A DNA stretch of 48,824 bases from Deltaproteobacteria bacterium (lineage in GTDB: Bacteria; Myxococcota_A; UBA796; UBA9615). Under the pieces are notes generated by a model. That model saw only the letters and a program-made list of their open reading frames with translations. It was not told the origin of the DNA and did no database searches. A program made the position numbers and the translations under genes. Each line of letters opens with the position of its first letter. Positions within the stretch are counted from its first letter, which is position 1. The stretch is taken from contig JAGSHC010000019.1 of assembly GCA_023954745.1 (NCBI GenBank), positions 1 through 48,824 on the forward strand. The letters are read 5' to 3'. Below, one piece after another: positions 4,043 through 36,080 of the stretch.

Positions 4043-7000
4043 CTAGAGCTCCATCTCCAGCGGACGAATGAGGCTCGTCCCCCCGGTGGCCTCGGCGAGG
4101 AGCATGTCCTCGCAGCGCCCCAGGTAGAGGCGGGCCGCTCCGTCCTCGGGGTCGGCGTCGAGCACCGCCCGGAAGCCCTCGCGGGCGTCCCGGTACTCGC
4201 TCTCGACGAACTGCTGCACTGCCGCCTCGAAGGCGGTCTTCGTGCGGTCGAAGCTCGTCGCCCGCTCCGAACCCTCGTAGACATGATGCAGTTGGACCGT
4301 CGCGGTGCGGCCACGCACCTCAGCCTCCCCGAGGGCGCGAGACCGCCATCGCTGCGGGTCCGTGCAGAGCGCCAAGGCGGTGCCGCTCACCAGGACCCCC
4401 GCCTCGTAGGGCTTGGTGAGCCCCTCCAGGCGCGACGCCGTGTTCACGACATCAGAGATGACGGTGCTGTCCATGCGCTCGGCCTCCCCGATGGTCCCAA
4501 GCATCAGCGAGCCGTGGTGGATGCCGATGCCGATGCGCACCGGCTCCGCGTCCTCCAGCGCCAGCTCGGCGTTCATGTTCGCCACCGCTCCTTGCATGGC
4601 GATGGCCGCGGCCATGGCGTCCTGGGGGCCTCGCGGGAACAAGGCCATCACGGCGTCGCCCACGAACTTGTCGATGAAGCCGCCGTGCTGCCGGATGACC
4701 GGGCCCACATGGCTCAAGTATCGGTTGATGAAGGCAAAGTTCTCGGCGGGTGACATGCCCTCGGACAGAGCTGTGAACGCGCGAATGTCCGAGAAGAGCA
4801 CCGTCATGTCGCGTTGCACCGCCTCGCCGAGCTGCACCTCGGCGATGCTCTCGCGGCCGAGATGCGTCAGGAACTGCTGCGGCACGAAGCGGGAGAAGGA
4901 GTCCGCGAGCTGGCGGTTGCTCTCGGCCTGGGCCTGCTGCTCTCCGTAGAGCTGCGCGTTTTCGAGCGAGGTCGCCATCTGACCGGACAGCAAGCGGAGA
5001 AGCTCCAGCCGACCCGGAGTGAAGACCCCCGCGGTGGCATCGTTCTCGAGGTAGAGAACGCCGACGAGCTCCCCGCGGCGCACCAGGGGCGCGCAGAGGA
5101 TCCCGCGAGTGCCTCGGGCTCGAATCCACGGGTCCGCGAGCCACTGGCCTGGCTCGGCGACGTCGCTCAGCACCACCGGCTCCTGGGTGCGCTCCACGTA
5201 GTGCGCCACGGAGCGGGCCAGGTCCTGGCGGCCATCGATGGGGGTGCCATCGAGGGCAGCGAAGCCAGCCTCGGTCTGCTCGGCCGCGGACACCAGCCGT
5301 CCGTCCTTCCTGAGGAGAAGCAAGGCCCGTCGGGCGCCGGTGTTGGCCATCGCGAGACCGAGCAAGGTGCTGAGCAGGTCGTCGAGGACAAGCTTCGAAC
5401 TGATGGCTTCACTCGCCTTCAGCACGGTCAGCAGGTCCAGCATCTTGTCGCCGGTGGTGGTGCTCGAGACGGTGGCGTCGAGGCCCCGCACGCTGAACTC
5501 GCGCACGGCGATCTCGGGGTGCTTGGCCTCGAGCTGCCGCACCCGCAGGGCGGCGCCCCAGCGAGCCCAGCCATCACGAGCCGCCTGGTAGTAGACCCGC
5601 GCCACACGGGCACGACCCGCCTCTTCGTGCAGGGCGCCAGCGCGCTCGTTCGAGAGCGCCTCGTCCTGAAGGAACCCCTGATGGTTCGCCTCGGCGATGG
5701 CCGCCTCGAAGCCGTTCATGGCCTCGAGTTGCTTGCCGTCCAGCCAGGCGATCTCGGCCTCGGTGTGCAGACGCTTGTGCTTGAAGCCCTGGGGAGCGTT
5801 CTCCTCCCAGGTGGCGAGCATCCCGAGGTCCTCGTCCAACTTCGCCCGGACCGCAGCTGCTTCCGCCCCCGACAGGGTGCGGAGATGGAGCGGCGCCGCC
5901 AGGGCTCGAGTCCACCGGGTGAGGCTCGTCTGGGGGTTGCCGGCCACCGCCGGATCCCAGGCCGCGCCTCGCTCCGCGTGGTCGTAGGCCTCGGTCGCGC
6001 TCCCCACGATGCGGTGCACCATCGCCTTCAAGCTGTGCCACAGGTGTGGCGTGAGCGGATGGGTGAAGCCCTCCACCTCAGCCTGGTAGCCAGCCTCGTC
6101 CCAGGCGGCGTCGCCGAACGCGGCGGGGGCGTGGGTGTCTCCCCGCAACGCCTCGATCGCCTGCAGGGTCATCGAGAAGCCATGAGACGACTCGTGAATG
6201 CGGTTCCGCACGGCGAAGTCACGGTACTTCCGGCTGTGTTCGGCCACGGTGTCCAGGGGCATGCCCATGAGCCACTCGGCGGCCACCTGCTGGGCGCTCG
6301 CGTAGTGCGCGTGCATGGGGTCACCGGACTCGAGCGCCGCATCAAAGCCGGCCTTCAAGGGCTCGAGGACGACCCGGGGGTGGTCCCCCCAGTGGCTGAG
6401 CAACCCGACGGCGGTGCTCATCTTCGCCTTGAGCTCGACGTCGGGGTACGCCTCCTTCACCCGCAATCCGGTGGCGTGATACTTCAGCCCGGTCGCGTAG
6501 TCCCCGAGAATCGGGCCGGTCACCAGTCCGAAGAGGCTCCAGGCGAAGGAAGAGTCGGCGCTGTTGCCGTGCTGGAACGACAGCTGGGTCATCTTGAGGA
6601 TGACGATGGTGCCCTGGGCGACCCCCGTGAACATCGCGGCCGCGACGACGTTGTTGAGGATCTTGAGCGCCATGACGACCTTGGGGTCCGTCGCCGGGGG
6701 GAGGTCTGCGAAGGATGAGGGGTCCTGGCCGGCCAACATGGCCTGGGTCGCGCCGAGCTCTGCGCCCATGTCCTCCATTCCAGGGTCGGGCTTGAGCTCC
6801 ACGCCCGCCAGCGCGACGCCGGCGATGGCGAACTGCACGGCCTCCACGAAGAACGAGCGCCGGGCGTAGATCTCCAACTTGAGGTTGTAGATCTGCATGC
6901 GCTCGAGGTCGGTGCGGCTGTTGGCGAGGATCTCCTCGGTGACTGCGTCCGCGTCCTCGAGGCGATGCGCCATGTAGAGGCAGATGGCCCGGGAGCGGCT

Positions 7001-9418
7001 CATCTGCGCGCCGAGGTCGTAGCCATCCGTCCAGCGGACGTCGCCCAGAAGCTCCAAGCCCGCATCGAGGAAGGACAGCGCCGGCTCGTACGCAGCGTTG
7101 AGGCGCGCCGCCTCCCCGGCCCGCCCAAACAGATCCGCCAGCCGTCGCCTCTCTCGGGTGCCTGAGACGAGGTGCAGCCCATGCTGGAATTGCTCGGCCA
7201 CGGCGAACACGTCGGCCTCGTCGGCCCCGCTGTCGAGCAAGCTCCGTCCGATGCTCAGGTGCACCCCGGCACGGTCCTCCTCGGGAATGGAGGTGTAGGC
7301 AGCCTGCTGGATGCGGTCGTGGAGGAAGCGGTACTGGGGGTTCACCCGTTCCTCGTGGTCCTCCTCCTCGTGGTCTTCTTCCGTGATGGCGGCGAAGTCG
7401 CCGGACGTCGCAGCCATCAGCCGGTAGTCCTGGTCGAGGGGCACGACGAACCCGTCGTCCATGGCGCTCCAGAGGTCGGCGGCCGCGTCCTCCTCGTCAC
7501 GGTCCGCGACCTGGGCGAGGGTCTCCAGATCGAACGTGTTCCCGATGCACGCAGCGAGGCTCAACAGCTCCCGCGCCGAAGGCGGGAGGCGGTCCAGCTT
7601 GCGCGCCATCAGATCGATGACGTTGTCGGTCATCCCGACGGCGCGGATCTCGTCGAGGTCCCAGAACCAGCCGTCCGTGGCCGAGAACTTGAACAAGCCG
7701 TCGCGATGGAGGGCTGCCAGGAACTGGCGCACGAAGAAGGGGTTCCCCCCTGTCTTGTCGTGCACCAGGCGCGCCAGAGCTTCGACCGATGCGGGATCTC
7801 GCCTGACCGTGGCCGCGATCATCTCCATGAGGTCCCCCAGGCCCAGCCCCTGAAGCACCAGACCGAGCTCGCCCACCATTCCCGCCTCGGCGCGCGCCGC
7901 CTTGAGCCGGGATCGCAAGACCTCGAAAGGATGCGCAGCGTCCACTTCGTTGTCCCGGTAGGCGCAGATCACCTGCACGTGCGCCGTGGACGGGTCGCTG
8001 AGCAGACCCTCGATGAGCGCCAGAGAGGGCTGATCCGCCCACTGCAGGTCGTCGAGGAACAGGACCAGGGGGTGCTCATCCGCAGCGAGCGCTTCAATGA
8101 GCTTGAGGAACGTCCCCTGGAAGCGGTGTCGCTCCGCTTCGGCGGAGAGGGGCGGCGGGACGGGCTGGGGCCCCACCATGTGGCAGAGGTCCGGGAGGAC
8201 CGCCGTGGCGACGGGCAGCAGAGGGCCCATGGTGCTCAGGATCCGCTGTCGCCATCGCTCCAGCCGATCCTCGGACTCGGACAGCATCGAGGAGATGATT
8301 CCTTCGAAGGCGAGAACGATCGCGGAGTACGGCAGGTTGCGGCTGAACTGGTCGAACTTGCCCTCGGCGAAGAGACCGCGCCGCAGCACCACGGGCTCGT
8401 GGACCTCCCGGATGAGCGCAGACTTGCCGATCCCCGACCACCCGCCGACGGTCACGAACTCGGAGCCACCCCCGGCGGCGCGCTTGAACGACCGGAGGAG
8501 CTGGGTCCGCGGTTCGTCGCGGCCAAAGAGCTGGTGCGGCACGACGAACCGGTCGGAGCGGTCGTGGCTGCCGAGGGCAAAGGAGACGACGTTGTCTTCG
8601 GCCAGACCGGCCGCGATGCGGCGCAGGTCATGCCCCAGGCCCGTCGCGGTCTGGTAGCGGTTCCGAGGGTCCTTGCGCAGCAGCCGAGCGACCAGATCCG
8701 ACAGCACCGGGGGAACGTCCGGGACGAGCGCGCTGACCCGCCGTGGCTTCTTCACCACGTGTTGGTGCACGAGCTCCACCGGGTCCTCGGACGGGAAAGG
8801 GCGCTCCCCAGCGAGCATCTCAAAGAGCGTGATCCCGAGGCTGTAGAAGTCGCTGCGGCGATCAATGGGCCGGTTCATCCGCCCGGTCTGCTCGGGCGAG
8901 AGATAGGCCAGGGTGCCTTCGAGCCCGGACACGGCGACCCGCTCCTGCTGCTCGGACTCCAGCAGCGACGAGATCCCGAAGTCGATGAGGGTGACGTCCG
9001 CTCCCTCCCGCACGAGGATGTTCGAGGGCTTGATGTCCTTGTGCACGATGCGGTTGCCGTGCACTCCGCCGAGAACTCCGGTGATCGCCAGAGCGATCTC
9101 CACGGCGCGCAGGACCGGGAGTTCGCCCTGGGCGAGGACGTCCTTCAACGTGATGCCACCGTCATCCTCGAAGACCAGGGTCGTGCGGCCCTCGTGGCGG
9201 GTCAGCTCCAGCGGCCGGGGGACGCCGGGCACCCCCGCATCGGCGAGGCGGCCCAACAGCGAGTGCTCCGTTCGGAGCTGCGCGTGGGCCTTGTCCCCCG
9301 ACGCACGACCGCGTAGAGACTTGAGGACGACCCGGCGGCCGTCGCTGGCCCGGCGCGCGCGGAAGACGACCGAGCGCTTCCCCTCATCGAGGCACTTCTC
9401 GATCACATAGCCAGCCAT
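4043..9418 (-). CDS. Multidomain Ser/Thr kinase - AAA ATPase - GAF - class III adenylate cyclase
   Basis: The 1,791-residue protein is a large cytoplasmic signalling hub. Residues 1-275 are a Hanks-type kinase: Lys33 in VVLKSL, HKD with Asp128, and DFG at Asp146. Residues ~295-600 are a PknK/STAND-like ATPase with a P-loop at 325-333 (GGWSGIGKS) and a Walker B FLDDLQWAD. A helical tetratricopeptide-like region follows to ~1300. Residues ~1330-1480 are a GAF domain (GVLYLENDATAGVFTP). Residues ~1535-1700 are a class III cyclase with both metal Asp (FSDIRAF; GDAVMALF), a Lys before the second metal site and Asp in the VVNTASRLE motif, which indicate ATP rather than GTP. TPR helices end the chain. 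This resembles the eukaryotic-like kinase/ATPase predictors found in myxobacteria, with the cyclase added as an output. No membrane segment is seen. An SD (GGGGGAG) precedes the ATG. An acidic EEDHEEEDHEE insert lies in the ATPase/TPR junction. Confidence 0.9.
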   Translation of the reverse strand: MAGYVIEKCLDEGKRSVVFRARRASDGRRVVLKSLRGRASGDKAHAQLRTEHSLLGRLADAGVPGVPRPLELTRHEGRTTLVFEDDGGITLKDVLAQGELPVLRAVEIALAITGVLGGVHGNRIVHKDIKPSNILVREGADVTLIDFGISSLLESEQQERVAVSGLEGTLAYLSPEQTGRMNRPIDRRSDFYSLGITLFEMLAGERPFPSEDPVELVHQHVVKKPRRVSALVPDVPPVLSDLVARLLRKDPRNRYQTATGLGHDLRRIAAGLAEDNVVSFALGSHDRSDRFVVPHQLFGRDEPRTQLLRSFKRAAGGGSEFVTVGGWSGIGKSALIREVHEPVVLRRGLFAEGKFDQFSRNLPYSAIVLAFEGIISSMLSESEDRLERWRQRILSTMGPLLPVATAVLPDLCHMVGPQPVPPPLSAEAERHRFQGTFLKLIEALAADEHPLVLFLDDLQWADQPSLALIEGLLSDPSTAHVQVICAYRDNEVDAAHPFEVLRSRLKAARAEAGMVGELGLVLQGLGLGDLMEMIAATVRRDPASVEALARLVHDKTGGNPFFVRQFLAALHRDGLFKFSATDGWFWDLDEIRAVGMTDNVIDLMARKLDRLPPSARELLSLAACIGNTFDLETLAQVADRDEEDAAADLWSAMDDGFVVPLDQDYRLMAATSGDFAAITEEDHEEEDHEERVNPQYRFLHDRIQQAAYTSIPEEDRAGVHLSIGRSLLDSGADEADVFAVAEQFQHGLHLVSGTRERRRLADLFGRAGEAARLNAAYEPALSFLDAGLELLGDVRWTDGYDLGAQMSRSRAICLYMAHRLEDADAVTEEILANSRTDLERMQIYNLKLEIYARRSFFVEAVQFAIAGVALAGVELKPDPGMEDMGAELGATQAMLAGQDPSSFADLPPATDPKVVMALKILNNVVAAAMFTGVAQGTIVILKMTQLSFQHGNSADSSFAWSLFGLVTGPILGDYATGLKYHATGLRVKEAYPDVELKAKMSTAVGLLSHWGDHPRVVLEPLKAGFDAALESGDPMHAHYASAQQVAAEWLMGMPLDTVAEHSRKYRDFAVRNRIHESSHGFSMTLQAIEALRGDTHAPAAFGDAAWDEAGYQAEVEGFTHPLTPHLWHSLKAMVHRIVGSATEAYDHAERGAAWDPAVAGNPQTSLTRWTRALAAPLHLRTLSGAEAAAVRAKLDEDLGMLATWEENAPQGFKHKRLHTEAEIAWLDGKQLEAMNGFEAAIAEANHQGFLQDEALSNERAGALHEEAGRARVARVYYQAARDGWARWGAALRVRQLEAKHPEIAVREFSVRGLDATVSSTTTGDKMLDLLTVLKASEAISSKLVLDDLLSTLLGLAMANTGARRALLLLRKDGRLVSAAEQTEAGFAALDGTPIDGRQDLARSVAHYVERTQEPVVLSDVAEPGQWLADPWIRARGTRGILCAPLVRRGELVGVLYLENDATAGVFTPGRLELLRLLSGQMATSLENAQLYGEQQAQAESNRQLADSFSRFVPQQFLTHLGRESIAEVQLGEAVQRDMTVLFSDIRAFTALSEGMSPAENFAFINRYLSHVGPVIRQHGGFIDKFVGDAVMALFPRGPQDAMAAAIAMQGAVANMNAELALEDAEPVRIGIGIHHGSLMLGTIGEAERMDSTVISDVVNTASRLEGLTKPYEAGVLVSGTALALCTDPQRWRSRALGEAEVRGRTATVQLHHVYEGSERATSFDRTKTAFEAAVQQFVESEYRDAREGFRAVLDADPEDGAARLYLGRCEDMLLAEATGGTSLIRPLEMEL

Positions 9419-10340: not shown

Positions 10341-11066
10341 ATGCTCGAACTCTGTGGAGTGTCGGTCAGCTTCGGGACGCTCGTCGCGCTCCAGCCAACC
10401 GACCTCACCCTGGAACCCGGTCAAGTGACCGCCCTCATTGGTCCCAGCGGGTGTGGCAAGTCCACCCTGCTTCGCTGCGTGATGGGGCTCGTGACGCCAA
10501 ACACCGGGACCGTCGCCCTCGACGGAGCACCCATTGGGGCCGCCGGATGGGCCGCCGCCCGCTTGCGGATGGGGTACGTCATTCAGGAGGGCGGGCTCTT
10601 TCCCCACCTCACAGCCCGCGGGAACGTCTCCCTGATGGCCGAGCACCTGGGGTGGGAAGCGGATCGCATCGCGGACCGCATCGACTCCCTGCGCGGCCTC
10701 GTGCAGCTCCCCTCCGAGGCCCTGGACCGACACCCCGGCGCCCTGAGCGGCGGCCAGCGCCAGCGCATCGCCCTCATGCGCGCGCTGATGCTCGACCCCG
10801 CGCTCCTGCTGCTGGACGAGCCTCTGGGCGCCCTGGACCCGATGATTCGCGCCGACCTCCAGCGGGAGCTCCGGGCGATCTTCACGGACCTCGGTAAGAC
10901 CGTGCTCGTGGTCACCCACGACCTCACGGAGGCAGCGCGGCTCGGCGACCGCATCGTTCTCCTCCGGGACGGGGACATCGTGCAGACCGGCACGCTGCCC
11001 GACCTCCGGGAGCGGCCGGCGACTCCCTTCGTGACCCGCTTCGTGTCCGCTTGGGATGCCCCGTGA
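10341..11066 (+). CDS. ABC transporter ATPase, osmoprotectant (OpuCA/ProV) type
   Basis: The 241-residue ATPase carries a Walker A (GPSGCGKST), signature LSGGQRQR, Walker B (LLLLDEPLGALDP) and switch His (VVTHDLTEA). It is closest in layout to quaternary-amine importers but lacks the C-terminal CBS pair that lets OpuA/ProV sense ionic strength. The following gene, which overlaps its stop by 4 bp, encodes the permease plus binding protein and so fixes the assignment. The start may be this ATG or the GTG at 10335. It would hydrolyse ATP on the cytoplasmic face to drive uptake of a betaine- or choline-like solute. Confidence 0.85.
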   Translation: MLELCGVSVSFGTLVALQPTDLTLEPGQVTALIGPSGCGKSTLLRCVMGLVTPNTGTVALDGAPIGAAGWAAARLRMGYVIQEGGLFPHLTARGNVSLMAEHLGWEADRIADRIDSLRGLVQLPSEALDRHPGALSGGQRQRIALMRALMLDPALLLLDEPLGALDPMIRADLQRELRAIFTDLGKTVLVVTHDLTEAARLGDRIVLLRDGDIVQTGTLPDLRERPATPFVTRFVSAWDAP

Positions 11067-12535
11067 AGGCGCTCCTCCTCCTGGTGATGGCCGTCCTCGC
11101 CCTCCCGTCCGCGGCCACGGCCGAGCCGGTGCGTGTGGGGAGCAAGAAGTTCACGGAGTCCGTGATTCTGGGGGAGGTAGCGGTGGGCGCCCTGCGGGAT
11201 GGGGGCTTCGAGGCTGAACACACCCGCGAACTCGGCGGGAGTCGCATCTTGTGGAACGCCCTGCGCTCGGGGGAGATCGACCTGTACCCCGAGTACAGCG
11301 GGACCCTCGTCCAGGAGCTCCTGGACGGCGAGCCGGGCGACCTGAGCACGGCCGCAGGACGGCAGCCGATCCTGAAGCGCTTGGGGGTGCGGGAGCTCAG
11401 TTCCCTGGGGTTCCAGAACACCTATGCCGTCGGCATGCTCGAGCCCTTGGCCAAGAAGCTGGCCGTGCGCAGCATCGGCGACCTCGCCCGGCACCCCGAC
11501 CTGCGCCTGGGGTTCAGCAACGAGTTCATGGAGCGCGAGGACGGCTGGCCCAAGGTGCGACGGGTCTACGGCCTCGATGCGCTCGCGGCCCGAGGACTCG
11601 ACCACGACCTCGCCTACCGAGGGCTCCACGCGGGGAACCTCGCGGCGACTGACCTCTACTCGACCGACGCGGAGATCGCGTTCTACGGCATCCGCGTCCT
11701 CACCGACGACGCCGGGGTCTTCCCCGAGTACAGCGCCATGCTGCTCGTCCGCGACGACCTCGACCCGCGCGCCGTCGCCGCGCTGGAGCGACTCGGTGGA
11801 CGGATTGACCGCTCCCGCATGGTCGCCCTGAACGCACGGGCGAAGCTCGACCGCACCCCCGAGGCGCAGGTGGCGGCGGAGTTCCTGGGCGAGGTCGGGG
11901 TCGACGTGGAGACGGGCCAGGCGGAGTCCCGGCTCGGCCTGCTCGTGAGGACCACCCGCGATCACCTCGCCCTGGTCGCCATCTCCTTGCTCGCCGCCAT
12001 CCTCGTGGCTGTTCCCCTGGGCATCGCGGCGGCTCGGCGGCCCCGGCTCGGCGCGGTCGTCCTGGCGGCGGTGGGAGTGGTGCAGACGATTCCTTCGCTG
12101 GCTCTCCTGGTCATGCTGATCCCCGTGCTCGGAATCGGCGCGCCGCCAGCCATCGTGGCGCTGTTCCTCTACTCGCTCCTCCCCATCGTCCGGAACACCC
12201 ACTCGGGGTTGGTGGGGATTCCAACGCCGCTCATCGAGTCGGCCATCGCCCTGGGCCTCCCGGACTCGGCACGGCTCCGGCGTATCGAGCTCCCGCTGGC
12301 GCTCCCCGCCATCCTCGCCGGGGTGAAGACGTCGGCTGTCATCAATGTGGGGACGGCGACGCTCGGAGCGCTCATCGGCGCTGGCGGCTACGGCCAGCCC
12401 ATTCTCACCGGCATCCGCCTCGACGACGTGAGCCTCATCTTGATGGGCGCCGTGCCAGCCGCGGTCCTGGCCTTGCTGGCGGAGGGGGGCTTCGCCGCCC
12501 TGGAGCGCGCGCTGACACCGAAGGGGTTGCGGTAG
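11063..12535 (+). CDS. Fused substrate-binding protein and permease, glycine betaine/choline type
   Basis: The 490-residue product starts at GTG 11063, overlapping the ATPase stop as GTGA, which implies translational coupling. A signal peptide (residues ~1-20, ending AATAEP) is followed by an OpuAC-type binding domain (VGSKKFTESVILGEV, typical of OsmF/OpuBC, to ~290). Then come about five membrane segments with the permease EAA-type loop (LPDSARLRRIELPLALPAILAG) at residues ~300-490. Order is binding domain then permease, the reverse of many OpuCB-CC fusions. It should work with the ATPase as a complete importer. The ligand is inferred from family resemblance only. Confidence 0.88.
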   Translation: MKALLLLVMAVLALPSAATAEPVRVGSKKFTESVILGEVAVGALRDGGFEAEHTRELGGSRILWNALRSGEIDLYPEYSGTLVQELLDGEPGDLSTAAGRQPILKRLGVRELSSLGFQNTYAVGMLEPLAKKLAVRSIGDLARHPDLRLGFSNEFMEREDGWPKVRRVYGLDALAARGLDHDLAYRGLHAGNLAATDLYSTDAEIAFYGIRVLTDDAGVFPEYSAMLLVRDDLDPRAVAALERLGGRIDRSRMVALNARAKLDRTPEAQVAAEFLGEVGVDVETGQAESRLGLLVRTTRDHLALVAISLLAAILVAVPLGIAAARRPRLGAVVLAAVGVVQTIPSLALLVMLIPVLGIGAPPAIVALFLYSLLPIVRNTHSGLVGIPTPLIESAIALGLPDSARLRRIELPLALPAILAGVKTSAVINVGTATLGALIGAGGYGQPILTGIRLDDVSLILMGAVPAAVLALLAEGGFAALERALTPKGLR

Positions 12536-29236: not shown

Positions 29237-30328
29237 TCACGCGGAGCTCGGCCCACGCACGATGTCCTCCGCGTCGAGAATCTCGCGGAACTTGGCGGGA
29301 TAGACGGCATGCTTCAGCGCTTCGGCGGCGTCCACCTGCCCAGTGCGCACGAGTCGGAGCAAGTGGGTGTCCAGGCTCTGCATCCCGCTCGCGGGGTCCA
29401 CGCTCTGGAGCATCGCGTCGATTTGATACGCCTTGTTCTCGCGAATCATGTTGGCGACACCGGTGGTCACGAACAGCAGCTCGATGGCCGCGGTGCGCCC
29501 ATCCTCGGTGGCGTTCCGCACCAGACGCTGCGACACGACGGCCCGCACGATCACGCTCAGCACTGCGCGCACCTGGTCGCCCTGCCCCTCCGGGAAGGCA
29601 TCGACGATGCGGTCGACGGCCTTCGCCGCCGAGCCGGTGTGCAGCGTGCCGAACACGAGCACGCCCGTCTCCGCCGCCGACAGAGCGAGCTTCATGGTCT
29701 CCAGGTCGCGCATCTCTCCCACGAGGACCACGTCGGGAGACTCCCGCAGCGCCGACTTGAGGGCAGTCCCGAAGCTCGCGACGTGCTCGCCGATCTGCCG
29801 CTGCGTCATGAGCGCCGTGCGATGGGGATGAAGGAACTCGATGGGGTCTTCGATGGTGATGATGTGCAGCGGCCGCGTCTTGTTCAGCTCGTTGATGAGC
29901 GCCGCCTGCGTGGTGCTCTTGCCACACCCAGTAGGCCCACAGAACAGCACGAGGCCGTTGGGCAGATCGAGGATCTGGTTCACCGCGGACGGCAGGTCCA
30001 GGTCATCGAGCTCCGGCACCTCTTCGGGGATGACCCGGAACACCGAGCCGATGCCCCGACTCTGGTGGAAGACGTTCGCGCGAAAGCGCCCCACCCCCCG
30101 CAGGTCGTAGGCGAAGTCGACCTCCTGCTCCCGCTCGAGGATGTCCCGCTGCTCCTCCGTGAGGATCTCCATGAGGAAGCGACGCGCCTCAGTGTCGGTC
30201 AGCTGCCGGAACGGGATGGGGACCAGCTCCCCGTCATGCCGAATCAATGGCTTGTTGCCCGCCATGAAGTGCAGGTCGGAGGCCTTCTGCTCCACCACCA
30301 AGCGCAGGAATGAGTCGAGGCGTGCCAT
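29237..30328 (-). CDS. pilT: Type IV pilus retraction ATPase PilT
   Basis: The 363-residue protein has the PilT architecture: an N-terminal PAS-like domain (VEQKASDLHFMAGNKPLIRHDGEL), Walker A (GPTGCGKST), Asp box (ITIEDPIEFLHP), Walker B (VVLVGEMRDLET) and His box (VFGTLHTGSAAKAVDRIVDAFP). The C-terminal VANMIRENKAYQIDAML takes the place of the AIRNLIRE-type motif. It powers pilus retraction for twitching motility as a hexamer. The start is directly adjacent to the stop of the upstream HEAT-PilT gene, with no gap, so the two are coupled. Confidence 0.93.
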   Translation of the reverse strand: MARLDSFLRLVVEQKASDLHFMAGNKPLIRHDGELVPIPFRQLTDTEARRFLMEILTEEQRDILEREQEVDFAYDLRGVGRFRANVFHQSRGIGSVFRVIPEEVPELDDLDLPSAVNQILDLPNGLVLFCGPTGCGKSTTQAALINELNKTRPLHIITIEDPIEFLHPHRTALMTQRQIGEHVASFGTALKSALRESPDVVLVGEMRDLETMKLALSAAETGVLVFGTLHTGSAAKAVDRIVDAFPEGQGDQVRAVLSVIVRAVVSQRLVRNATEDGRTAAIELLFVTTGVANMIRENKAYQIDAMLQSVDPASGMQSLDTHLLRLVRTGQVDAAEALKHAVYPAKFREILDAEDIVRGPSSA

Positions 30329-33148
30329 CTAGAGACCCGGCTCCGGCGCCTTCGCCCAAGGCGGCGCGGTCTCGGTCTTCGGCGCGGGCACGTCGATGAC
30401 CCCGGACACCTCGGCGGCGAGCACATGCTCGAAGAGCGACTTGTCCAGCGCTTTGGCGTAGGCCTCGGGCGCGCTCACGATGCCGTCCTGGACCAGGTTC
30501 AGGAGCTGGTCATCCATCATCTGCATGCCCAGCTCGCGGCTCGTCTGCATGACCGAGGGCAGCTGGAAGCACTGGCCCCTGCGGATGTGGTTCGCGGTGG
30601 CGTCCGTGTTCAGCATGATCTCCACGGCGGGCACGCGCCCCGTGCCGTCCTTGCGTCGAAGCAGGTGTTGGCAGACCACCGCGCGCAGGGTGTGCGCGAG
30701 CATCGCTCTCACCTGCATCTGGTGCCCCGGCGGGAAGGCATCGATCAGCCGGTCGACCGAGGTGTCGGCGCTCACCGTGTGCACGGTGGCGAGGACCAGG
30801 TGTCCGGTCTCCGCCGCGGACAGGGCGAACTGGATGGTCTCGAGATCGCGCATCTCCCCCACGAGGATCACGTCTGGATCCTCCCGCAGCGTCGCTCGAA
30901 GCGCCCGCCCAAAGGAGCGGGTGTGTGTCCCCACCTCGCGCTGGGTGATCACCGACTTGAGGTGCTCGTGCACCACCTCGATGGGGTCCTCGATGGTGAT
31001 GATGTGGCGCCCATGGCGCCGATTGATGTGGTGAATCATCGCCGCGAGCGTCGTGCTCTTCCCGCTGCCCGTGGGCCCCCCGATGAGCACGAGCCCATCA
31101 GGCAGATCGCACAGCTCGGACACCAGCTTCGGGACGCCGAGCTCATCCAGCGGTCTCACGTCCTGCACGATCTTTCGAAAGACGGCGGACACCCCGCTCG
31201 ATTGCCGGAGCACGTTGACCCGGAACCGCAGCCCGAGGGACTTCACGCCGATGGAGAAGTCCGCATCCTCGAGACGGTCGAACTGCTCCTCCTGGACCTC
31301 GCTCATCATCCCGCGCACCGTCGACTCCACCTGCGCGGCGGTGAAGACCTGGTTGCTCAGCTGCTTCATCTGCCCGAGGGTCTTGATGTAGGGCGGCTGG
31401 TCCGCGATGAGGAAGAGGTCGTCGCCCCCCTCCTTGACGGCCCACCAGAGCAGTCGCTCGAACCCCTTCAACCGCGCCTCGAGGCCGTCCACCTCGGACT
31501 CCTCGACCCGCGCCTGCCAGCCGAGCATCAGGTCCCGGGCCTCCGCCCGCACCCGCTTGTCCTTGTCGGTGAGCAGCGGCCGCACCCGAGGAGAGAGGCT
31601 CGCGTCGTCGATGGCGCCGAGAACCCGCAGCGCCTCCAGGCGCAGGTCTGCATCCTCGTGACTGAGCAGACGCCCGAGGATGGGCAGGCTCTTCTCGCTC
31701 TTCAGAGCACCCAGAGCCGTCACAATGGCGGGATACAGAGTCTCATCGGACTCGCCGAGCTTGGCGAGGTGCGGCACGATCTGCGGGTCCCCGATGGCCC
31801 CCAGACACTCGACGGCCCGCTCGCGCACCCACCAATCGGTGTCGGTCTTCGCCACCTGGAGGAGAGCGCCGAGGCTGCGGGGATCCTCGAGCCGAATGAG
31901 GACCTCCACCGCGTAGCGGCGCACGACATCGGAGTCGTCCTGCAGGTAGGCGACGATGTGGCGGGTGAGCTGATCCCCGGCCAGCGCCACCAGCGCCTCC
32001 ACCACCCGCTCGCGTACCCACCAGTCCTCGTCCCGCAGGAGATGCAGCAGCTTCGGCCAGATCTCCCCGAGGGGGTCACCCACCTGCTGGGCCACGTCGA
32101 TGGCCTGACGTCGTACGTTCACATCGCTGCTGCGCAGCAGCCAGAGCACCATGCGCGTGGGGTCGATCTTGCCGCTGCGCGCCAGCTTGGTGACGACGTC
32201 GAGGGAGGCGTTGCGGATGGGGAGCGACTCGTCGCTCAGAGCGTCCACGAGCAGCGGCAACACGGAGTCGTCGCCGATCTCCTCGAGGGTCCGCAGGATC
32301 ACCTGCCGCGTCCCGCGCGGCGCCTTCGCGTAGAGGCGCTGGAGGATGGCGATGGTCGTTGGTGACTTCGCGCTCGCCATGCACTGCACCGCGGAGCGCT
32401 GCAGACGGGGGTCCTCGTGATTGAGGAACGGCGCGATGCGCTCGAAGAACATGTCCGGCGGAGCCGACCGAGCCAAGGCGCGCATCGCTTCGAGAGCGAC
32501 CTGGCCGTGTCGGGAGTAGAGCGCCGGCTCGATGGCCTCGGCCGCCGCGCGGCGGCTCGACTTCACGTACTGCGGGTCCCCCAGGAGACGGAGCGCGCCG
32601 AGGACATCGTCCCGGGTCCCCCCGTTGATGACCCGCCCGAGGATGGGGATGGCGTGATGCCCCCCGAGGGTGCAGGCCAGCTCCATCGCTTCCTGTCGAC
32701 TCGACCAGCCCGAGCCGTTGAGGGCGTAGGCCAGCTCCTCGAGGGCGGCGCGGCCTCCCCCACCCTGCAGCAGCTCGGACGCGAAGCTCCGCAGCGCCGC
32801 GTCTGGGCTCTTGAGCAGTCGCACGACCTCGACATGAGCCGACGGGTCGTTGCACCTCATCAGCAGCGGGAGCAGCACTCGGCGCACGCCGGGATCGCCC
32901 TTGATGGCGATCTTGAGCATCGGCTGGTACCAGGCCCCATCCGGGGCGGCGCCCATCAGCATCACCCACACCGACAGGCGCGCGCGGCGCTGCTCGAGGG
33001 TGACCCCCGGCTCCGGCAACAACAGAGGCAAGAGCTTGCTCAGCTCAGATCGCGAGAGGGCTCGGGCCTCACCCACGAACTCCTTCTGGGCGTTCAGGTC
33101 GGGCCAAGCAGCGGCGATGAACTCCTTCTTCGCGGCGCGGTAGTTCAT
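30329..33148 (-). CDS. HEAT-repeat protein fused to a PilT-like ATPase
   Basis: The 939-residue protein has two parts. Residues ~30-560 are a long series of HEAT/PBS-lyase-like repeats (ASLDVVTKLARSG..., RAVECLGAIGDPQIVPHLAKLGESD, EALRVLGAIDDASLSPRVRPLLTDKDKRVRAEARDLML). From ~570 it is a complete PilT ATPase with Walker A (GPTGSGKST, near residue 690), ITIEDPIEVVH, ILVGEMRDLET and TVHTVSADTSVDRLIDAFP. The HEAT solenoid probably binds a regulator or pilus-base partner. It precedes pilT with zero spacing, so two retraction-type motors are made together. The fusion is unusual; the ATPase half alone is about normal PilT size. Confidence 0.9.
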   Translation of the reverse strand: MNYRAAKKEFIAAAWPDLNAQKEFVGEARALSRSELSKLLPLLLPEPGVTLEQRRARLSVWVMLMGAAPDGAWYQPMLKIAIKGDPGVRRVLLPLLMRCNDPSAHVEVVRLLKSPDAALRSFASELLQGGGGRAALEELAYALNGSGWSSRQEAMELACTLGGHHAIPILGRVINGGTRDDVLGALRLLGDPQYVKSSRRAAAEAIEPALYSRHGQVALEAMRALARSAPPDMFFERIAPFLNHEDPRLQRSAVQCMASAKSPTTIAILQRLYAKAPRGTRQVILRTLEEIGDDSVLPLLVDALSDESLPIRNASLDVVTKLARSGKIDPTRMVLWLLRSSDVNVRRQAIDVAQQVGDPLGEIWPKLLHLLRDEDWWVRERVVEALVALAGDQLTRHIVAYLQDDSDVVRRYAVEVLIRLEDPRSLGALLQVAKTDTDWWVRERAVECLGAIGDPQIVPHLAKLGESDETLYPAIVTALGALKSEKSLPILGRLLSHEDADLRLEALRVLGAIDDASLSPRVRPLLTDKDKRVRAEARDLMLGWQARVEESEVDGLEARLKGFERLLWWAVKEGGDDLFLIADQPPYIKTLGQMKQLSNQVFTAAQVESTVRGMMSEVQEEQFDRLEDADFSIGVKSLGLRFRVNVLRQSSGVSAVFRKIVQDVRPLDELGVPKLVSELCDLPDGLVLIGGPTGSGKSTTLAAMIHHINRRHGRHIITIEDPIEVVHEHLKSVITQREVGTHTRSFGRALRATLREDPDVILVGEMRDLETIQFALSAAETGHLVLATVHTVSADTSVDRLIDAFPPGHQMQVRAMLAHTLRAVVCQHLLRRKDGTGRVPAVEIMLNTDATANHIRRGQCFQLPSVMQTSRELGMQMMDDQLLNLVQDGIVSAPEAYAKALDKSLFEHVLAAEVSGVIDVPAPKTETAPPWAKAPEPGL

Positions 33149-33190: not shown

Positions 33191-35623
33191 CTACTCGACC
33201 TGGAACCTCCACCCGTCCTGGTCGAAGAAGTCGGCGGCGTCTGCGTAGGAGAAACCGCAGTGCGCGGCGAACTGCGCGTCAGTCTCCATGTCCCCCACAT
33301 AGACACAGCGCCCTGGGTCCAGCTCATGGTCGACGGTCAGCTGGACTCCGAGCCCCGGCATGGGCTTGCGGGTCCAGTTGTCGATGCGGCCCGACGGGTG
33401 GGCGTCCCAGCGCACGTCGATGTCGTGGCCCAGGAGCTCGTTGGTCCGGTCGAAGCAGGCCTTCGCCCCCTCCTGGGTGAGCTGCCCACGCGCGATGCCC
33501 GACTGGTTGGAGACGCCGAGCAGGAGCCAGCCAGCCTCGACGAAAGCGGTCAGGGCCTCGGCTCGGCCTGGGAGGATCTCGACTTCGTCGGGCGTGAGGG
33601 GGAACGGGGCAGGACCCGTGCTGCGTCTCAAGGTGCCGTCGTAGTCGAGGATCAGCGCGCGCTTGCTGTGGCTCTCGGGCCATCTCCGCGCGAACGGCAC
33701 CACCTCGACCGAGGAGAAGGCTTCGTCGCTGCCGGGCTCGTCGCGGCGGGCGAAGTAGCCGTCCACAGCACCGGGGGGAAACATGTTGGGGTCGTCCTTG
33801 GACGCAGCGCGGATCTCCTTGGCGTCCAGCAGGCGCCCCCGGCGCCCGATCATGCGTAGACACGCATTGACGTAGGCGTCGGAGCGGGGTGTGTCGACGA
33901 GGACGAGGCGAACCGGCACCCCGAAGCGTGCCCCCAGGGCCAGGGCCTCGGCCCGCGAGGTGCGCGAGGGATAGGTGTTGTCGAGGACGAAGTGACGACG
34001 TCCCGCTTCGAGGCCCTTGCGGAGGAGCGCATCGACGTCCGAGAGACGGCCGCCCACCGTGTCCCGATTCAGGCGCTCGAAGCCCAGGTCCAGCCACGGC
34101 TGCACCCTCGACGTCTTGCCGGCGGCCGGAGGGCCAGCGATGAGCACGATCTGTTCGGGGGGAGGAGGGACCGCGGCGGCAATGGCGGTGCGCGCGGTGG
34201 CGGCCCAACCCCGCCGGACCTCGAGCCGCTCCTGATCGGCGGCGGTGACGGGAAGCACGCCCGCGGCGAAGGAGCTGGTGGCGGACAACGCACGGGTCGC
34301 CCCCGGGATCGCCGCAATCCCCGGCCCCATGGCGAGAACCCAGGCGATGGCTACCTGCTCGACGCTGGCACCCTTGCCGGCGGCCACAGCGGCGAGGGCG
34401 GGGTCCTTGCGCGTCTTGGCGACTCCGCGGTGACCTCCCACGGGGGCGTAGGCGATGACGGGGATCTGCTCGGCGTGGCATCGCGCCACCAGGCCGTTCT
34501 TGAAGGCGGCAGCCTTGGAGCGGCTGAGCTCGAGCTGCACGCAGTCGATGGAGGTGATCTGCAAGGCGGCGTCGAGCTGCTCCTCCTTGATGTTGCACAG
34601 CCCGATGTGCGCGACCTTCCCCTCCTCCTTCAGGGCCGCGAGCGTCTCCACCTGGGACTGCAAGGAGACTCCCTTGCCGTGGGGGGCGTGCAGTTGGAGC
34701 AACGGGAGGGTCTCGACGCCCAGGGCCGCGAGGCTTCCGTCCACCGCGGCCCGGAGCTGCTCGGGGCGACCGGCGGGGACCCAGCGTCCGTTGGGGCGAG
34801 CGAGGCCTGCCTTCGTGGCGATGAGGACCTCCTCGGCTGGGCCCTCCCAGGTGGCGAGGGCCTCGGCGATGAGGGCTTCGTTGTGGTGCAGGTCCCCGTC
34901 GTCGAGGGCGTAGGTGTCCGCGGTGTCGAGCAGACGCACTCCTGCGTCGAGGGCGGCGTGCAGGACCGCGATGGCGTCCGAGCGCTCTGGGCGACCGGCG
35001 GTGGAGAGCCGCATGCAACCGAGGCCGACGCGGGGAACGGTCACTCCGGCGATCGAGAGGGTCTGAGGAGCGGAGGTCGACGCAAAGGACGGCAGCGGAG
35101 GACCAGGGGCCGCGTCGGCTCTCGGTGGAGTGGGCTTCCCGGACTCGGGGACGCCCTCGTCGAAGAGGTCCCACAGGTCGTCCTCGTCCCAGTCGTCCGA
35201 GGGGCGGTCCGGCACACCGCGGCCCCCGAGGTTCTGGACCTCCCACCACTTGGGCAGCATCGCCACGTCGGACGCGTCGCACACGAGGACTTCGCGTCGC
35301 GCGCCGGGCGCCGCGGGTGGACGCACTCCCAGGAGCAAGGTGCCGTCGAGCAGGGCGTCGATGAGGGCGCGGGTGGCGGAGTCGGGGCGAGCGCGGCGGT
35401 TGCGAGGGGCGACGCTGACGTAGCGACCGATGGACGAGCCTCCGGCCTGGCCCTCCTTGGGCGCGTCGAGGCCGAGACCCAGGGAGAGTTCAGCGTTGCT
35501 GAGGGCCGGCGTCACCGATTGCTGAATGCGCTGGATCCGGGCGCGGTACTCGCTCTTCTGGGCGGCGATGGCGCGCTCACCGAGTTCGTCGGCGATGCGC
35601 TGGGCGGCGCGGGTCAATGCCAT
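33191..35623 (-). CDS. Aldo/keto reductase - polynucleotide kinase - HAD phosphatase fusion
   Basis: The 810-residue protein fuses three enzyme domains behind an acidic N-terminal region (~1-185, with DDWDEDDLWDLFDEG). Residues ~186-475 are an aldo/keto reductase with all four tetrad positions: Asp and Tyr in LLDTADTYAL, Lys in VLIATKAGL, His in LLQLHAPHG. Residues ~485-650 match the PNKP kinase: P-loop GPPAAGKTS, RLNRDTVGG and FVLDNTYPSRTSRAEALALGARFGVP. Residues ~655-810 are an HAD phosphatase with DYDGTLRRS, the SNQSGIARG loop and VGDMETDAQFA. Kinase-then-phosphatase order is as in T4 Pnkp and opposite to animal PNKP. The start is the ATG at 35623 (TAACCT 7 nt upstream, no SD); the longer frame to 35764 was rejected. 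Function as an end-processing enzyme is inferred. Confidence 0.9.
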   Translation of the reverse strand: MALTRAAQRIADELGERAIAAQKSEYRARIQRIQQSVTPALSNAELSLGLGLDAPKEGQAGGSSIGRYVSVAPRNRRARPDSATRALIDALLDGTLLLGVRPPAAPGARREVLVCDASDVAMLPKWWEVQNLGGRGVPDRPSDDWDEDDLWDLFDEGVPESGKPTPPRADAAPGPPLPSFASTSAPQTLSIAGVTVPRVGLGCMRLSTAGRPERSDAIAVLHAALDAGVRLLDTADTYALDDGDLHHNEALIAEALATWEGPAEEVLIATKAGLARPNGRWVPAGRPEQLRAAVDGSLAALGVETLPLLQLHAPHGKGVSLQSQVETLAALKEEGKVAHIGLCNIKEEQLDAALQITSIDCVQLELSRSKAAAFKNGLVARCHAEQIPVIAYAPVGGHRGVAKTRKDPALAAVAAGKGASVEQVAIAWVLAMGPGIAAIPGATRALSATSSFAAGVLPVTAADQERLEVRRGWAATARTAIAAAVPPPPEQIVLIAGPPAAGKTSRVQPWLDLGFERLNRDTVGGRLSDVDALLRKGLEAGRRHFVLDNTYPSRTSRAEALALGARFGVPVRLVLVDTPRSDAYVNACLRMIGRRGRLLDAKEIRAASKDDPNMFPPGAVDGYFARRDEPGSDEAFSSVEVVPFARRWPESHSKRALILDYDGTLRRSTGPAPFPLTPDEVEILPGRAEALTAFVEAGWLLLGVSNQSGIARGQLTQEGAKACFDRTNELLGHDIDVRWDAHPSGRIDNWTRKPMPGLGVQLTVDHELDPGRCVYVGDMETDAQFAAHCGFSYADAADFFDQDGWRFQVE

Positions 35624-35630
35624 GAGGGCG

Positions 35631-35636
35631 AGGTTA
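35631..35636 (-). promoter_or_regulatory. -10-like TAACCT, 7 nt before start at 35623
   Basis: On the minus strand TAACCT, CGCCCTC, then ATG. Near-leaderless spacing (7 nt) and no SD. Confidence 0.4.
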
Positions 35637-35723
35637 GCCCGGCCACCGGTGGGGGTTCGCGACCTGGGGGACGGGACCTTGGAATAGTCCGGCGCGACGC
35701 CCGTACCATTGGGTGGAGGATCC

Positions 35724-36080
35724 ATGACCCAGACCATCTCCCAGTCCGACCGCAGCTTCGCCATCGTCGCCCATCTGTCGGGACTCGCCGGTTACATCAT
35801 CCCGTTCGGCGGCGCCATCGTGCCCATCTGCATGATGCTGCTGCTCACGGATCGCCCCCAGATCGTGACCATCGCGCGGCAAGCGCTGTTCCTGAACCTT
35901 GCGATGTTCGTGGCGGCCATCGGAGCGATCCTCTGCATCCTGACCCTGGTGCTGATCCCCGTGGGCTGGCTGATCCTCGTCCTCCTCGGGCCCATCGCGG
36001 TCATCCTCCCCATCATCGGCGCCATCAAGGCCGCCAACGGCGAGCTCTACCGCTACCCCATCGTGGGTGGAATGGCCTGA
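35724..36080 (+). CDS. DUF4870 membrane protein
   Basis: The 118-residue protein matches DUF4870: the start RSFAIVAHLSGLAGYIIPFGGAIVP, then about three membrane segments and the ending GAIKAANGELYRYPI typical of the family. The function of these small membrane proteins is unknown. The ATG has a GGAGGA Shine-Dalgarno, and the longer TTG frame at 35709 is not needed. Confidence 0.85.
   Translation: MTQTISQSDRSFAIVAHLSGLAGYIIPFGGAIVPICMMLLLTDRPQIVTIARQALFLNLAMFVAAIGAILCILTLVLIPVGWLILVLLGPIAVILPIIGAIKAANGELYRYPIVGGMA

Follow-up and report, generated by a model that had tools for sequence, protein, structure and literature searches.

What might be accomplished by a protein in which an aldo/keto reductase (AKR) is joined, in one reading frame, to both halves of a polynucleotide kinase/phosphatase? 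The question was raised by a gene on contig JAGSHC010000019.1 of a Deltaproteobacteria bacterium (assembly GCA_023954745.1), for which the whole stretch of 48,824 nucleotides (the window) was analysed. A predicted AKR with its full catalytic tetrad, a PNKP-type kinase and a HAD phosphatase were found in one chain and are inherited as a unit. Judged from its sequence, the fusion may well be a nucleic-acid end-healing enzyme (DNA or RNA) with an added reductive step, a reading that is put forward tentatively. No description of the fusion was found in a literature search (subscription papers and domain-architecture databases were outside the search).

The frame is uninterrupted on the minus strand (33191-35764) and gives 857 amino acids counted from the first ATG; residue numbers throughout refer to this frame. 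Translation most likely starts at Met48, since homologues begin at the equivalent Met (MPLTPAAKK.., MALTPSAQ.., MSLTPNARK..); no clear Shine-Dalgarno sequence was seen at this start. An orphan N-terminal domain of about 140 residues is followed by the AKR, the kinase and the phosphatase (positions and profile matches are given in table 1). The first-pass annotation had proposed a three-way fusion in one frame, with the kinase ahead of the phosphatase as in phage T4 Pnkp; the domain positions confirmed this order, the fusion was seen in dozens of genomes, and every catalytic position that had been named is present in the window protein. The predicted fold was good inside the domains (mean predicted local distance difference test score, pLDDT, 87.5), with the mutual arrangement of the domains uncertain (predicted template-modelling score 0.54).

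The reductase was assigned to the AKR superfamily on a TIM-barrel fold match (template-modelling score 0.89 to PDB 8hnq, by target length) together with the D280-Y285-K318-H359 tetrad, which is kept in 56/57 fusions, the remaining copy being cut by a contig end. The nearest solved structures are AKR13B2 and PdxI (PDB 8hnq, 8te8), with which the fold, the tetrad and about 30% of overall sequence are shared; the AKR13 reductases and the Escherichia coli pyridoxal reductase PdxI stand alone and act on small molecules, whereas the fusion AKR sits in a multidomain chain. By comparison with AKR1 we take residue 439 as the nicotinamide-stacking site. It is His in 47 of the 57 fusions, but nearly all free relatives have Tyr or Trp there, and in the window copy it is Tyr.

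Kinase and phosphatase had been read together as a polynucleotide kinase/phosphatase, and this held on profile comparison: mouse PNKP was the best solved match of the family kinase-phosphatase profile (A3), with i-Evalues of 8e-20 for the kinase and 5e-16 for the phosphatase in opposite order, and free relatives were found in phages (below). The kinase (G549-K550-T551, R567-D568, D595-N596-T597, R604) has the P-loop GxxxxGK[ST] pattern and the NRD catalytic Asp (K550, T551, R567, D568), and its active site is intact in 57/57 fusions. Its region was also matched by the kinase part of the NCBIfam PNK-3'Pase model (residues 536-700, 1e-14, under the cut-off of that equivalog). In the phosphatase (D707-x-D709-x-T711, N753-Q754, R799-K800, D825), the DxDGT nucleophile and acid are present in the window copy (D707, D709, T711, D825); the Pfam PNK3P match at 706-842 was below cut-off (0.0055), and that of a Nannocystis relative was above it. 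The zinc-type motif CxH..CxC is absent from the window copy, where all ligands save His are replaced (D787, H789, N796, T798), and is retained by most relatives. The window domain does not belong to the GmhB family by these measures, as the CxH..CxC cysteines are absent and the GmhB models scored far under cut-off.

Mammalian PNKP (PDB 1yj5, 3zvl) has the same kinase and phosphatase families, with NRD and DNT kinase motifs and a DxDGT phosphatase. It differs from the fusion in its FHA-phosphatase-kinase architecture; here the kinase comes first, no FHA domain was found in the Pfam scan, an AKR and the orphan N-terminal domain are added, and most fusion relatives have CxH..CxC in the phosphatase. 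Phage T4 Pnkp (PDB 1ltq) has a P-loop kinase followed by a HAD phosphatase, as in the fusion, but the sequence match was weak (whole-chain 2e-6) and T4 Pnkp has no AKR. With the HAD-IIIA phosphatases GmhB and HisB, the HAD core and, in most relatives, a CxH..CxCRKP motif are shared, whereas the phosphatase here always lies behind a PNKP-type kinase and the window copy is without the cysteines.

At least 57 distinct full fusions were found in Myxococcota, Planctomycetota, Acidobacteriota and Pseudomonadota. Two of these lie on complete chromosomes of isolates, and a chance or assembly artefact was ruled out by the collection as a whole; a search of 142 related genomes had also given several full-length homologues. 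Genome contigs were scanned with a search seeded on two phosphatase motifs only and hence blind to the reductase. Among the matches listed, loci were from Myxococcota (Nannocystis, Minicystis, Enhygromyxa), Planctomycetota (Pirellula), Acidobacteriota and Pseudomonadota, and an AKR lay in the same frame in 34/36 uncut kinase-phosphatase loci (without AKR: L059, L063). In a sample of the phylum, the kinase was present in 35/379 genomes, and 32/35 uncut checked loci were fused, three being free (G124, G229, G342); this tally leaves out four loci cut by contig ends (two with an AKR tail) and G372. Nearly all bacterial copies of the kinase-phosphatase thus carry the AKR, in approximate terms, because many records are metagenome-assembled genomes and the scan figures cover the matches listed. 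An apparent 680-residue partner domain at L146 was rejected as it is Arg-rich and reads as a spurious upstream frame, leaving L146 a free kinase-phosphatase. The window's own genome holds a second AKR-kinase fusion (G000:C469, L044), which lacks the N-terminal domain, has a degenerate phosphatase and had been missed by the first-pass annotation.

Free kinase-phosphatases of about 312-340 amino acids were found in 23 phage or viral loci (L165-L187) on contigs of 43-595 kb. Two of the loci are in huge-phage records of 595 and 462 kb, the other 21 on viral contigs, of which some are almost identical. The module, its order and nearly all key motifs are the same as in the fusion, the AKR is absent from 23/23 loci, and the phosphatase motif is kept in every phage row examined. 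This pattern speaks for a nucleic-acid role of the kinase-phosphatase half and for addition of the AKR in bacteria. Some of the phage proteins match the PHROG polynucleotide kinase family; as a T4-Pnkp-like gene of huge phages, the group has little PHROG coverage.

In the AKR tree, one branch (Shimodaira-Hasegawa-like approximate likelihood ratio test, 94) separated the 57 fusion AKRs from 20 free AKRs; a single fusion origin was thus not rejected. The kinase tree gave main groups similar to those of the AKR tree, with the phage copies apart (support 97), and AKR and kinase distances were correlated (0.80, permutation p 0.001). Most simply, the fusion arose once, long ago, and then spread by descent and transfer, seldom losing its AKR. 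The phosphatase has fared differently: its site is intact in 31/57 fusions, and its catalytic residues are lost in 26/57, in which phosphatase identity drops to 37% while that of the AKR (45%) and the kinase (51%) stays near the values of the other fusions. As a description of the family as a whole, an enzyme with three steps of equal weight is too strong, although in the window protein the phosphatase looks intact save for the zinc-type motif. Since AKR and kinase sites are kept while the phosphatase decays, reductase and kinase form a conserved pair and look like the coupled core of the fusion; because 5' ends are where the kinase works, the simplest reading places the reductase at that end as well. 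All degenerate phosphatases retain the CxH..CxC residues, the three fusions without the cysteines (window, L037, L081) retain DxDGT, and no fusion has lost both.

Ionising radiation and enediynes such as neocarzinostatin oxidise the sugar at C5', which leaves aldehydes at 5' ends; breaks made by bleomycin stem from oxidation at C4' instead. Most single-strand breaks made by neocarzinostatin have a 3'-phosphate and a 5'-aldehyde, and in bench protocols the 5'-aldehyde is reduced to a 5'-OH with borohydride (PMC3950721); a 2012 review (PMC3825254) called the way in which cells resolve such ends 'essentially unknown'. For the substrate, the order of steps, the use of NADPH and channelling between sites, we infer the following route. 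Radical abstraction at C5' would break the strand and leave ends of two kinds, a nucleoside 5'-aldehyde and, across the break, a 3'-phosphate; the AKR, with NADPH, would reduce the 5'-aldehyde to a 5'-OH, the kinase would convert the resulting 5'-OH to a 5'-phosphate, the HAD phosphatase would turn the opposite 3'-phosphate into a 3'-OH, and a ligase would seal afterwards. The fused enzyme would hold each predicted activity needed to make a C5'-oxidation break ligatable. The 5'-aldehyde is the most likely AKR substrate; its reduction would yield exactly the substrate of the kinase, and retention of reductase and kinase despite decay of the 3' activity points to the same end. Action of the AKR on aldehyde termini would be consistent with both the chemistry and the conservation pattern.

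End healing could also be real with the AKR engaged elsewhere than at the 5' end, clearing different aldehydes that form when sugars are oxidised (abasic sites, 3'-phosphoglycolaldehyde, base propenals) or shielding the enzyme's surroundings. Oxidised sugars do yield several aldehydes, 3'-phosphoglycoaldehyde included (PMC3825254), and in bacteria the reductase is nearly always attached to a PNKP-type module; however, a reduced 3'-terminal aldehyde is not a ligatable end, and the reductase persists where the 3'-phosphatase has been lost; we consider this reading unlikely.

Genome associations bear on whether the strand healed is RNA. RNA_ligase-family matches were commoner in kinase carriers (18/35 vs 52/344, odds ratio 5.9, p 3e-6; with stricter matches 11/35 vs 42/344, p 0.004), counts that ignore genome size and kinship. 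Together with the activity of T4 Pnkp on RNA, this enrichment would suit an enzyme that heals RNA after breakage by toxins or by oxidation, ahead of a T4-type RNA ligase. The family also catches DNA ligases, however, the window genome's own match being an ATP-dependent DNA ligase; the expected synteny with RNA or DNA ligase genes failed, as none adjoins any copy; and the reductase would be left unexplained unless the RNA ends were oxidised. Such a role in RNA repair appears improbable.

Several observations weigh against reductive end healing at the 5' end. No ligase or other repair gene recurred beside the fusion loci and there was no conserved operon; Ku was not associated with carriage of the kinase (8/35 carriers vs 61/344 others, p 0.49), and a link to Ku-dependent end joining was dropped. 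Distribution of the gene is patchy, the fusion being missing from other genomes in the same genus and family as the window, and it is therefore not a core function. 5'-Aldehyde ends may also decay spontaneously. AKRs are promiscuous, and the closest solved relatives of this one (AKR13B2 and pyridoxal reductase) use small-molecule substrates; GmhB and HisB, both small-molecule phosphatases, are at least as near to the HAD domain as PNKP is. These last resemblances, with the loss of HAD catalytic residues in nearly half of the fusions, would fit a metabolic enzyme in which the alcohol made from a small aldehyde by the AKR receives a phosphate from the kinase, and the HAD domain then edits or recycles the product (a sugar, nucleoside or B6-like compound, for example). 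The PNKP motifs of the kinase, PNKP as its nearest solved structure, the free relatives in huge phages and the want of conserved pathway neighbours speak against such a pathway role, which we regard as rather unlikely.

Table 1. Positions of the fusion gene, its domains and other features in the window.
Feature	Position	Strand	Details
Complete fusion gene, 810 amino acids	33191..35623	-	start at Met48 of the longer frame, most likely
N-terminal orphan domain, residues ~48-189	35198..35623	-	helices, then small beta hairpin; AlphaFold2 pLDDT 91.8
Aldo/keto reductase domain, residues 234-518	34210..35065	-	PF00248 (Aldo_ket_red, 245-514) 5e-45; tetrad D280 Y285 K318 H359
PNKP-type 5'-kinase domain, residues ~537-695	33680..34156	-	GPPAAGKT, LNRD, LDNTYPSRTSR; AAA_33 (540-628) 7e-10; mouse PNKP kinase profile match 8e-20
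HAD phosphatase domain, residues ~696-840	33245..33679	-	LDYDGT, SNQSG, RKP, GDxxxD; HAD-IIIA TIGR01662 (702-839) 2e-16, over cut-off; PNKP 5e-16; GmhB 2e-22
1791-residue Ser/Thr kinase	4043-9418	-	AAA, GAF and guanylate cyclase domains
Glycine-betaine permease with its binding domain fused in front	11051-12535	+	one frame
Two adjacent PilT-family ATPase genes	29237-33148	-	directly downstream of the fusion; long HEAT-repeat region (939 amino acids) fused to the upstream gene of the two

The conserved N-terminal domain had been overlooked by the first-pass annotation. It occurred in 8/71 genomes of the class, each time within the fusion, and is restricted to part of the fusion family; no match of weight was obtained against Pfam, PDB sequences or, with Foldseek, the PDB. 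Its helix-turn-helix look by eye was discarded, nothing having been found to back such an identity; as a guess, the domain may aid binding. The only widely recurrent neighbour cluster (nine loci) includes the window's large Ser/Thr kinase, genes related to which lie near several other fusion copies. An anti-phage defence system was rejected, no PADLOC model being matched.

Strand ends are healed by kinases, phosphatases, nucleases and phosphodiesterases, and to our knowledge none of these enzymes includes a redox step. If the AKR acted on a metabolite, the fusion would give a PNKP-type P-loop kinase an unexpected small-molecule job. A reductase working on strand ends would add a new type of chemistry to end healing. 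In the more doubtful, fuller form of this proposal, the fusion would be the first enzyme dedicated to oxidised strand ends, its AKR converting the 5'-aldehyde to a 5'-OH in place and passing it to the kinase of the same chain, and would represent a reductive branch of end healing in several bacterial phyla. The single-chain reductase-kinase-phosphatase family is a concrete candidate for the resolution of 5'-aldehyde ends.
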